Assembly: GCA_016235815.1 (NCBI GenBank) | Contig: JACRIM010000010.1 | Location: forward strand, 1-64,000 | Direction of reading: 5' to 3' | Length of the DNA stretch: 64,000 nt | From: Planctomycetota bacterium | GTDB lineage: Bacteria; Planctomycetota; Phycisphaerae; UBA1845; UTPLA1 | In this document: piece after piece, positions 19,795-64,000 of the stretch | Layout: every line of letters begins with the position of its first letter | How positions within the stretch are numbered: position 1 is the first letter of the stretch | Notes under the pieces: model-generated | Told to the model about the DNA's origin: nothing | The model's input: the letters and a program-made list of their open reading frames with translations, nothing else | Databases searched by the model: none | Position numbers and translations under genes: made by a program

Positions 19795-21909
<2,115 letters not shown>

Positions 21910-21910
21910 A

Positions 21911-21958
21911 CGTCGAAAGCCGAAACGCCGAAACGTCGAAAAGTCGAAAAGTCGAAAT
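21911..21958 (+). repeat. Short array of 7-8 bp NNYCGAAA repeats
   Basis: Six copies of a CGAA-containing 7-8 bp unit begin 2 bp after the EF-G stop codon. The same unit makes up the long array at 62014-62319, including the shared end GTCGAAAAGTCGAAAT. Confidence 0.8.
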
Positions 21959-60472: not shown

Positions 60473-60955
60473 TCAGCCCGGAACGCGAATCTCGGTCGGG
60501 CGCGGGCGCGGGGCCGCGGGGGCCATGGGCTGCGCCGGGCGCATGCCTTCGGGGGCCACCGGGGATGGGCTGCTCATGGAGATCTCCGAACCCGGCGATC
60601 GGCGGGCGGGCTGCTCGGCGGCACCCTGACCGACGACGACGTTGCCGACGAAGATGGCTCCATCGGCGATCTCCAGTCGCGTGGTGCGCAGGTCGCCTTC
60701 CATCTTGGCCGTGGCCAGAAGGTGGAGCTTCTCGCTCACGAACAGGTTGCCCTTGCACTCGCCCTCGACGCGGACGTTGGCCGCCTCGACATTGGCCTGC
60801 ACGCGGGACCCTTCCGCGATGTGCAGGGTACCCTTTGATTTGATGTGCCCGTCGAAGCCGCCCTCGATTCGGACGCCTTTTTCGAAGGACAGTTCCCCCT
60901 TGAATTTCGCATCGGCCCCGATGACGGTCGGGAATTCGCCGGTTGCTTCCGCCAT
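60473..60955 (-). CDS. Bactofilin (polymer-forming cytoskeletal protein)
   Basis: 160 residues. Bactofilin domain about 10-115: VIGADAKFKGELSFEKGVRIEGGFDGHIKSKGTLHIAEGSRVQANVEAANVRVEGECKGNLFVSEKLHLLATAKMEGDL, the short beta-coil repeats that self-assemble into filaments. A proline-alanine-rich tail follows. ATG 60955 with a strong GGGAGGAG upstream. The frame stays open far upstream into the repeat cluster, but the ribosome site and family start support 60955. Confidence 0.92.
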   Translation of the reverse strand: MAEATGEFPTVIGADAKFKGELSFEKGVRIEGGFDGHIKSKGTLHIAEGSRVQANVEAANVRVEGECKGNLFVSEKLHLLATAKMEGDLRTTRLEIADGAIFVGNVVVGQGAAEQPARRSPGSEISMSSPSPVAPEGMRPAQPMAPAAPRPRPTEIRVPG

Positions 60956-60970
60956 GACAATCTCCTCCCA

Positions 60971-60987
60971 GCGCCCAATTGGGGCGC
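60971..60987 (-). promoter_or_regulatory. Leader hairpin upstream of bactofilin
   Basis: GCGCCC (60971-60976) pairs with GGGCGC (60982-60987) around AATTG, about 16 nt before the start codon and just before the ribosome site. It could affect translation of bactofilin. Confidence 0.3.
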
Positions 60988-61147
60988 CTTTACGCTTAGA
61001 ACGATGCCAGTATGAATCCCTCCCTGGAAAGTCGAGCCAGTATAGCGGGACGGGGGGGCGGGAGCGAGGGGATGGGAAAGGCAAAATGTCGAATAGCGAA
61101 TGATGAACGTGGAAGGGGTCGCTGCGCGACGGCTGGATGTAAAAAAA

Positions 61148-61260
61148 CTGGGACAAACTGGGAAAAAGTGGGACGGGAGCGGGGAGCGGGGAGCAGGGAA
61201 CAGGGACCGGGGATCGGGGGACAAGGGGATCGGGGGACAAGGGGATCGGGGGGCCGAGGG
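61148..61260 (+). repeat. Purine-rich GGGGANC-type degenerate array
   Basis: About 16 degenerate units of the type GGGGAGC, GGGACCG, GGGGGACAA, spaced 7-10 bp. No strict register, so it is an imperfect low-complexity tract. Confidence 0.7.
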
Positions 61261-61270
61261 TATATAGTTG

Positions 61271-61390
61271 GAGCGACGGAGCGACGGAGCCACGAAGCCA
61301 CGAAGCCACGAAGCCACGTAGCCACGTAGCCACGGAGCGACGGAGCCACGAAGCGACGGAGCCACGAAGCCACGTAGCCACGAAGCGACG
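61271..61390 (+). repeat. Octamer array RAGCSACG, fifteen copies
   Basis: Exactly 120 bp = 15 copies of an 8-bp unit, alternating GAGCGACG, GAGCCACG, AAGCCACG, TAGCCACG and AAGCGACG. The regular register throughout makes it the clearest array in the region. Confidence 0.9.
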
Positions 61391-61445
61391 CAGGGGAGGG
61401 TGGGGGCGCTTTGCGACGATGGATGCGCAAAAAAAAGTACCCCCC

Positions 61446-61494
61446 GCAAAATAGTGCAAAAGCCCGCAAAAGGCCGCAAAAGGCCGCAAATAAG
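61446..61494 (+). repeat. GCAAAAGGCC-type array, about five copies
   Basis: GCAAAA units separated by CC, GGCC or TA at a spacing of about 10 bp. It begins 6 bp after the spacer copy at 61402-61440. Confidence 0.75.
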
Positions 61495-61495
61495 T

Positions 61496-61538
61496 CTTGA
61501 GTCCTGAGTCCTGAGTCCTGAGGCTTGAGGCGCGAGGG
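61496..61538 (+). repeat. Heptamer array TCCTGAG, about five copies
   Basis: Three exact TCCTGAG units then GCTTGAG and GCGCGAG, spaced 7 bp, preceded by CTTGAG. Confidence 0.8.
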
Positions 61539-61615
61539 ACTTGGAACCGCGGATTGTGCGGATTGGCGGAGGTTTTTTGAAAACAGCCGGCGTGCTTCCA
61601 TGGGGGCGGTGGGGT

Positions 61616-61650
61616 TGAGTCGCAGAGCCACGGAGCCACGGAGCGACGAA
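61616..61650 (+). repeat. Second octamer array, same family as 61271-61390
   Basis: About four copies (GAGTCGCA, GAGCCACG, GAGCCACG, GAGCGACG). Confidence 0.8.
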
Positions 61651-61683
61651 GGGGATGATGAGGTGGCTTCGCAACGTGAAGCA

Positions 61684-61736
61684 GAGGGAACGGGGAACTG
61701 GGAAGAGGGAATGGGGAACAGGGAACTGGGAACAGT
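61684..61736 (+). repeat. GGGAACW-type degenerate array
   Basis: Units such as GGGAACG, GGGAACT, GGGAAGA, GGGGAACA and GGGAACA spaced 7-8 bp. Confidence 0.7.
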
Positions 61737-61740
61737 GGAA

Positions 61741-61772
61741 GGCACAGAGGCACGGAGGCACAAAGGCACGGA
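61741..61772 (+). repeat. Octamer array GGCACRRA, four copies
   Basis: GGCACAGA, GGCACGGA, GGCACAAA, GGCACGGA in strict 8-bp register. Confidence 0.85.
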
Positions 61773-62013
61773 GGGGACGACGCGGCGGCTGCGCAGCGAT
61801 GCTTGCAAATAAATCTGAGTTGTTACAAAGGGGATTTGGGTTTTTTGTCCGACTATCGCGATGGGGCGGGCGCGAATGCGGATTGGGGTGGTGGGGGCGC
61901 GGGATGTCCGGGGTTCTCTCCATACGCCTATCAATCTTGCTCGGTGTTTCGCACGCGGCTGTGATTTGTTGTAGGTATTTGTTAGGTAAGGGGTTGGGGA
62001 CGGAGACGGGCAA

Positions 62014-62319
62014 GAAAAGTCGAAACGTCGAAACGTCGAATGCCGAAAGCCGAAAACCGAAACGCCGAAAGCCGAAAGCCGAAACGCCGAATGCCGAATG
62101 CCGAAAGCCGAAAGCCGAAAGCCGAAAGGTGAAACGCCGAAAGCCGAAAGCCGAAAGGTGAAACGCCGAAAGCCGAAAGCCGAAAGGTGAAACGCCGAAA
62201 GCCGAATGCCGAAACGCCGAAACGCCGAAAGCCGAAAGCCGAAAGCCGAAAGGTGAAACGCCGAATGCCGAAACGCCGAAAGCCGAAACGCCGAAAGGTG
62301 AAGCGTCGAAAAGTCGAAA
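62014..62319 (+). repeat. Long heptamer array of NNYCGAAA units, about 40 copies
   Basis: About 306 bp of 7-8 bp units, mostly GCCGAAA with ACGCCGAA, GCCGAAT and AGGTGAA variants, flanked on both sides by AAGTCGAAA-type units. The same unit occurs at 21911-21958, 40 kb away, sharing GTCGAAAAGTCGAAAT at the end. Probably a dispersed repeat family. Confidence 0.9.
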
Positions 62320-62553
62320 TGAGGCTGATGGGAGCATTCGCAGATTTCGCGGATCGGGACCGAGGGATCGAGGGGTTTCAGGGGCTGAGGGCAGGTAGGG
62401 GTCGCTGCGCGACGATGGGGAGTCGGTGGCCGTGCTCTACATGGTGGCGCGGGCGGAGGCCTGAGCGAGGGCCTTTTGGATTCGGGCGATGACGTGGCCT
62501 GGGGATTTGAGTCTATTGCCATCAATTGCGGTCATTAGTCTGCTGTAGTCGAA

Positions 62554-63379: not shown

Positions 63380-64000
63380 ATGTCGACTGCTCGACGAGTC
63401 TTGTGGAGTCGGGCGCACTCCCTGATCGCGCTTAACCTGTATTGCAAACTTCCGTTTGGTAAACTCCATAAAGGCAATCCGCTGATCAAGGAAGTTTCCG
63501 CACTGATGGGACGCACCCCAAGCAGTTTGGCGATGAAGTTGTGTAATTTTGCATCGCTTGATCCTGTCTTGCGAGCGCGCGGCATCAAAGGACTGCCGCA
63601 AGTCTCGAACAACGATAAAGCGATCTGGTCCGAGTTTCATAGAGATATTGAAACGCTCGCGCCAGAAAGCGAGCAACTTCTTCATCGACTCTTTACCGAC
63701 AACGATGACCTTGAAATTGACTTGCTTGAGCGCGATCGTGTTCGTTTCGAACCCACGCAGCGCATCCCAAGCGGAATGAGGGTTACGGAGGCCACGGCGA
63801 CAACTCGGGTTCGTCGCGGACAACAGTTTTTTCGGCAATCTATTCTTAATGCCTATGGTGTGCGGTGCTGCATCAGCGGCATCAACGTTCCGCGATTGCT
63901 TATCGCGAGCCATATCAAGCCGTGGAATGCGTTTCCCGACGAGCGGCTCAATCCCAAGAATGGTCTGTGCCTTTCGAGTATTCATGATGCTGCTTTCGAT
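63380..64000 (+). CDS. HNH endonuclease, C-terminus cut by the window end
   Basis: The frame is open from ATG 63380 (AGGAG upstream) to the window end, 207 codons. The N-terminal part (MSTARRVLWSRAHSLIALNLYCKLPFGKLHKGNPLIKEVSALMG) is a helical domain seen in bacterial HNH nucleases near restriction or defence genes. The HNH site is visible: Cys pair CCISG, His 178 (ASHIKPW), Asn 194 (NPKNGLCL) and His 202 (SSIHDAAFD). It probably cuts DNA; target unknown. Confidence 0.85.
   Translation, partial: MSTARRVLWSRAHSLIALNLYCKLPFGKLHKGNPLIKEVSALMGRTPSSLAMKLCNFASLDPVLRARGIKGLPQVSNNDKAIWSEFHRDIETLAPESEQLLHRLFTDNDDLEIDLLERDRVRFEPTQRIPSGMRVTEATATTRVRRGQQFFRQSILNAYGVRCCISGINVPRLLIASHIKPWNAFPDERLNPKNGLCLSSIHDAAFD

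Follow-up and report, generated by a model that had tools for sequence, protein, structure and literature searches.

At the right end of the window, by which we mean the whole stretch of 64,000 nucleotides that was analysed, a block of short tandem repeats separates a bactofilin gene from a gene of unknown function (Table 1). Tandem Repeats Finder resolves the block into ten tandem arrays between about 61145 and 62319, with units of 7, 8 or 10 bp that belong to about eight sequence families. The copy numbers and families of the original prediction are right, as is the purine-rich strand which it described as shared by most of the arrays; this is the + strand for every array. The extent given there, 60956-62420, holds in part: the block is real, but 60956-61050 is the 5' region of the bactofilin gene with its conserved promoter. 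The non-array pieces between the arrays consist of short hairpins and a conserved core of 220 bp. Near the end of the window (63380-64000, + strand) lies a gene whose C-terminus, HIKPWN...NGLCLSSIHDAAFD, appears by eye to be HNH-nuclease-like.

Table 1. Features of the repeat block, its neighbours and further repeats of the window, by position
Feature	Position	Strand	Basis or remark
Separate array AAACGTCG x6.4	21908-21957	+	Starts 4 bp past a stop codon
Bactofilin gene	60473-60955	-	Open frame; left neighbour of block
Conserved bactofilin promoter region, CCCTCCxTGG...AGTATAGC	61018-61046	-	Left boundary of block
Hairpin spacer GTCGC-TGC-GCGAC	61118-61130	+	Sequence reading, folding; hairpin spacers follow arrays in many blocks
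Array AAACTGGGAC x3, 10 bp	61145-61174	+	Tandem Repeats Finder
Module F, G-rich heptamer/16-mer arrays GGGAGCG, GGGAACA, GGGGATCGGGGGACAA	61175-61260	+	Tandem Repeats Finder (61175-61219 and 61209-61252, periods 7/16 bp, G-rich); potential G-quadruplex cluster 61150-61260
Module A, array AGCSACGR x14.9, 8 bp	61272-61390	+	Tandem Repeats Finder
Hairpin spacer GGGCGCTTTGCGACGATGG	61402-61422	+	Sequence reading, folding, block comparison
Module D, array GCAAAAGGCC x3.5, 10 bp	61456-61490	+	Tandem Repeats Finder
Module C, array AGTCCTG x4.3, 7 bp	61493-61522	+	Tandem Repeats Finder
GCGGATT repeats, 2-3 imperfect units	61546-61571	+	Sequence reading
Second AGCSACGR array x3, 8 bp (module A)	61625-61648	+	Tandem Repeats Finder
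Hairpin spacer GGCTTCGCAACGTGAAGC	61660-61682	+	Sequence reading, folding
Module E, array GGGAACW x7.9, 7 bp	61685-61740	+	Tandem Repeats Finder; potential G-quadruplex (motif match)
Module B, array AGGCACRR x4.4, 8 bp	61740-61774	+	Tandem Repeats Finder; unit in many phyla
Hairpin spacer CGGCTGCGCAGCG	61780-61800	+	Sequence reading, folding
Non-array conserved core, about 220 bp	61800-about 62020	+	39 own-genome matches
Promoter-like motif GAAACRCYGAGCAAGATTGATAGG inside core	61923-61951	-	About 25 distinct copies
Module G, array CGAAA-NN(N), about 40 units	62016-62319	+	Tandem Repeats Finder (62016-62297, 7/8 bp, 38.6 copies)
Hairpin spacer GTCGCTGCGCGAC	62400-62413	+	Sequence reading, folding
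Gene of unknown function, 224 aa	62554-63228	-	Open frame; right neighbour of block

Exact-period runs (period 7 plus 8 combined) cover 224 positions of the block. In 300 first-order Markov simulations the mean was 0.1 for period 7 and 0 for period 8; the remainder of the window has 0-0.25 per kb. Head-to-tail short units are well above chance in the block, as expected of a long simple sequence repeat. By motif match, five potential G-quadruplex clusters are found on the + strand of the block and none on the - strand, and two in the other 61 kb. The suggestion that the purine strand could form unusual DNA or RNA structures thus stands in silico, in the form of these motifs.

Other classes of element were considered. 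A CRISPR array is ruled out, since the units are of 7-10 bp without spacers, as compared to repeats of 20-40 bp with unique spacers. The minus strand is open in several frames at once (426, 533 and 509 aa), a by-product of units of 7, 8 and 10 bp and not a coding function. The block has no match in Rfam. Finally, an assembly artefact is unlikely, because the block sits inside a contig of 110 kb, has about 60 related loci and shares its families with single-contig relatives (G304).

Bactofilin orthologues were detected in 14 of 16 same-family genomes (E<=1e-20), and most of the same-family genomes examined keep the promoter element ahead of the gene. In none of the 14 relatives with an orthologue is there a block at the site. 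The block is therefore a lineage-specific addition which ends short of the promoter.

The search of the genome and related genomes that had been suggested as a check finds the same families elsewhere. In the own genome, Blast yields 126 matches to the window block, and Blast together with pattern searches places the block families at at least about 60 places, tallied by hand. Of the 120 contig ends, at least 16 have a block within about 1 kb, which indicates that the blocks break the assembly. Forty own-genome block stretches were taken for array comparison; they contain the same families, with units of 7 bp in 47, 8 bp in 41 and 10 bp in 21 of 115 arrays. After normalisation of block orientation, neighbouring modules are co-oriented in 133 of 134 pairs. 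The modules follow a preferred order: G-rich heptamers, AGCSACG, hairpin, GCAAAAG, AGTCTTG, GGGAAC, GGCAC, (hairpin), core and CGAAA. This order is clearly asymmetric, with 12 versus 3 cases for GGGAAC before GGCAC, 11 versus 1 for GCAAAAG before AGTCTTG, 9 versus 0 for AGCSACG before the hairpin and 8 versus 1 for AGTCTTG before GGGAAC. Most copies lack some parts, and in many blocks both ends are truncated in various ways. Moreover, segments of up to about 390 bp that include non-array DNA recur between pairs of blocks at 86% identity, and the core, with 39 own-genome matches, is shared between copies at 93% over 221 bp. Independent growth of arrays could not produce such order, co-orientation and shared non-array DNA, so the composite must have been duplicated. 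As judged from their sequences, the blocks did not arise as independent accidents but as copies of a single dispersed composite repeat.

The motif GAAACRCYGAGCAAGATTGATAGG inside the core occurs at about 25 distinct places of the own genome (including L026, L027, L067, L070 and L098), in several cases a few tens of bases ahead of gene starts, and is absent from 48 kb of relatives' DNA. It looks like a putative lineage-specific promoter of one sigma factor. At four places (L009 about 1904, L012 about 1752, L025 and one further site) an identical sequence, GAAACTATGAAGCGGAGGTCGCG...ATGCACTTCATCGGCGCAGACC, meets the motif after CTATCAATCTT, each time at the same base, and the contig then ends in at least two of these cases. 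This sequence is probably a site-specific insertion sequence. Three further structures were noted in the own genome. At L063 2719-9769, GGCAC, GGGAAC and AGTCTTG arrays fall within an open frame of 7 kb that runs on the other strand and may be a gene or read-through of the arrays. Tandem palindromic units of about 24 bp, CACTGGTTGGAAACCAGTGCCACAG, are present in more than ten copies near a block at L007 2830-3220 and form a distinct repeat type. A REP-like hairpin, GTCCACCCAGGCGGACCTTCGGTTTGCCGGC, is inserted between or within arrays at L009 1330-1400 and L012 1440-1510.

The core is missing from all 16 same-family genomes. Two of the tested unit families are shared: among 17 family genomes, 7 have AGKCYTG arrays and 6 have GGCACNNA arrays, and the number per genome ranges from 0 to 152. 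Whole genera are without the unit families, and unit sequences turn over quickly. CGAAA, GGCAC and GGGAAC arrays lie side by side in other genera (G294, G305, G308). By sequence, it is thus several unit families and not the composite that occur in other genera of the family. Among 294 genomes of the phylum, GGGAAC x3 is present in 6, GGCACNNA x3 in 15 and CACGGANN, the reversed control of the AGGCAC octamer, in 30. The AGGCAC octamer was therefore rejected as a special unit. Since the reversed control is itself a common octamer family, many octamers expand and no single unit is privileged. CACGGANN arrays were seen in the control genomes G044, G110, G171, G256 and G291, with up to 188 matches in the planctomycete G044, more than the searched unit itself reaches. 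Four-unit GGCACNNA arrays occur in at least 118 stretches of named genomes from many phyla; record titles name Planctomycetota, Bacteroidota, Verrucomicrobiota, Desulfobacterota, Nitrospirota, Chloroflexota, Cyanobacteria, Spirochaetota, Elusimicrobiota, Omnitrophota, Gemmatimonadota, Acidobacteriota, Actinomycetota, Pseudomonadota, Bacillota and others. Additional arrays of 7-9 bp are common around these matches, so mosaics are not unique to the UTPLA1 genome. The prepilin-type proteins and the kin of the latter suggest a planctomycete.

The arrays have a polarity with respect to genes: a gene edge, either a stop codon or a promoter, adjoins the purine strand at its 5' end. Distances between arrays and genes are those given by simple gene finders. 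The nearest gene edge in the own genome lies at a median of 115 bp from the purine-strand 5' end, as compared to 404 bp from the 3' end, and it is nearer to the 5' side in 23 of 28 blocks (p=0.0009). Stop codons and start or promoter edges both contribute. Among the 118 stretches listed from other genomes, 36 have a stop codon no more than 60 bp from the purine 5' end, and 11 have one that close to the 3' end (p=0.0003). For this test the arrays were masked symmetrically, because GTG in the array unit otherwise biases it at starts; after masking, the start-codon side of the cross-phylum stretches shows no asymmetry (19 versus 22). Neighbouring arrays of opposite orientation are convergent in 27 and divergent in 9 cases among the stretches listed from other phyla.

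The window arrays belong to the heptamer-dominated long simple sequence repeats, a class with units of 5-11 nt. Short tandemly repeated repetitive (STRR) heptamers of cyanobacteria likewise comprise several heptamer families in one genome. To our knowledge, STRRs have not been described as ordered mosaics with octamers and hairpin spacers. The heptanucleotides of Calothrix, one of these STRR cases, are cited in PMC4692102. That study describes GGGNATC heptamers of Xanthomonas and Nostoc, which follow the stop on the coding strand, precede the start on the non-coding strand and form convergent pairs (Rehm et al. 2015). The UTPLA1 arrays share this gene-edge geometry, and the convergent pairs have a counterpart in the stretches from other phyla; placement after stops and before starts holds in the own genome, and on the stop side only in other phyla. 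The GGGGATC (61209-61252) and GGGAACW (61685-61740) arrays resemble the GGGNATC/GGGGA(C/T)T unit, whereas the other families do not. Moreover, one unit family per genome was described for GGGNATC repeats, in contrast to about eight families of 7, 8 and 10 bp in ordered composites here, most of which cannot form G-quadruplexes. TAACTGA heptamers of marine Beggiatoaceae, Cyanobacteria and Bacteroidetes (MacGregor 2015, PMC4679880) are also intergenic, occur in distant phyla and reach many copies per genome, but they are a single family, lie mostly just upstream of start codons and were suggested to be regulator-binding sites. The tandem repeats of archaeal Borg elements (PMC9879509) are similarly fast-evolving, seeded from partial repeats and strand-biased in composition; they differ in having longer perfect units, half of them in genes, on linear extrachromosomal elements. 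A literature search with the unit sequences found no paper on bacterial repeats. The earlier statement that no named element has this design must therefore be narrowed: heptameric long simple sequence repeats, STRRs, GGGNATC and TAACTGA repeats are a known kind, while the mix of units and the ordered multi-family composite with its spread are, as far as we found, not described in the literature searched.

How an array grows can be followed between two genomes of the same genus. At one locus the array holds about five AGGCTTG units in G304, as compared to a single unit and a partial copy in G303, and both flanks align up to it. This is the one locus with a clean change of copy number in place between relatives, and it belongs to another genus of the family than the window block. 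An increase of about four 7-bp units that started from a single seed speaks for replication slippage rather than for template addition or insertion. At a second locus of G303 and G304 a short GGCACGRA-type sequence follows the same stop codon in both while the neighbours differ, which points to turnover at a conserved site. The CGAAA array (module G) has higher-order periods of 15, 22 and 29 bp, such as would result from slippage or unequal exchange involving several units. Both the in-place growth and these periods support a common generating process such as slippage, as had been proposed. With regard to unit length, Mrazek's proposal, as relayed in PMC4679880 and PMC4692102, is that 7 nt corresponds to a polymerase contact length.

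We consider it fairly probable that the arrays are heptamer and octamer repeats which grew by slippage at gene edges, were subsequently copied as blocks and probably have no dedicated function. First, one or two seed units at a gene edge would grow in place by strand slippage, as seen at the G304/G303 locus. Arrays and intervening pieces would then be joined into a composite of preferred order and one orientation, as the block sequences suggest, and its copies or fragments may have reached about 60 intergenic places by recombination or a mobile process. Finally, in line with the distance statistics, copies would persist where genes stay intact, with the purine strand pointing away from the stop codon or promoter; transcription leaving the gene may be responsible, its purine-rich RNA favouring R-loops and slippage, or else selection. 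Slippage by itself does not account for polarity, preferred module order or spread. No dedicated function has to be assumed; the arrays may passively affect transcription at gene borders. A carrier copying the blocks was not found: IS110 was hinted at by a short open frame starting with MHFIGAD at contig ends, and a search with PF01548 finds nothing in the bin.

Alternatively, the arrays may be selected at gene borders as transcription insulators or terminators, with outgoing RNA that is purine-rich and prone to G-quadruplexes and R-loops, and incoming C/U-rich RNA that is stopped, e.g. by Rho. Such a role agrees with the polarity seen at stop codons and at promoters, with the excess of convergent over divergent pairs in other phyla and with the confinement of G-quadruplex motifs to the purine strand, and the GGGNATC repeats have the same geometry, are mostly transcribed and form G-quadruplexes in vitro (Rehm 2015, PMC4692102). 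We nevertheless think it unlikely, given that many families (CGAAA, AGCSACG, AGTCCTG) cannot form G-quadruplexes, that units turn over fast with whole genera lacking them, and that Rfam gives no match. It is rather improbable that a transposase acting in trans moves the whole composite as a non-autonomous mobile element, with the arrays as cargo: its preferred order and orientation and the long shared segments would fit, but inspection of the block copies by eye revealed neither terminal inverted repeats nor common ends nor target-site duplications, both block ends are truncated in many ways, and arrays also occur singly and in genera without the composite. Telomere-like 3'-end addition, in which intergenic breaks are trimmed to a gene edge and their 3' ends receive purine-rich units from an enzyme that uses a template before they are rejoined, leaving outward and facing arrays, would explain polarity and convergent pairs as G-strands running toward an end, but this template-based mechanism, also named in the original prediction, is very improbable and was rejected as the main cause, because the sole clean filled/empty pair (G304/G303) retains both flanks and the seed unit, units vary freely within arrays and no enzyme was identified.

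Slippage-grown repeats at gene edges, later duplicated as blocks, are thus the reading that we prefer. A more far-reaching version, which we regard as doubtful, is that some directional process acting at gene edges, either 3'-end addition at breaks that have healed or growth driven by R-loops, makes heptamer and octamer arrays in bacteria generally, and that the UTPLA1 genome has assembled the products into a spreading composite. If true, polarity toward the intergenic side and convergent pairs across phyla would mark such a process. In practice, the blocks lead to broken assemblies and long spurious open frames. Heptamer and octamer repeats are widespread yet little-studied intergenic DNA of bacteria, and the UTPLA1 genome indicates that several unit families can join into an ordered, spreading composite. 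The polarity that had been published for a single heptamer extends here to further units, and in many phyla it is seen on the stop-codon side. This turns the question of why units are of 7-8 bp with the purine strand outward into a testable one.
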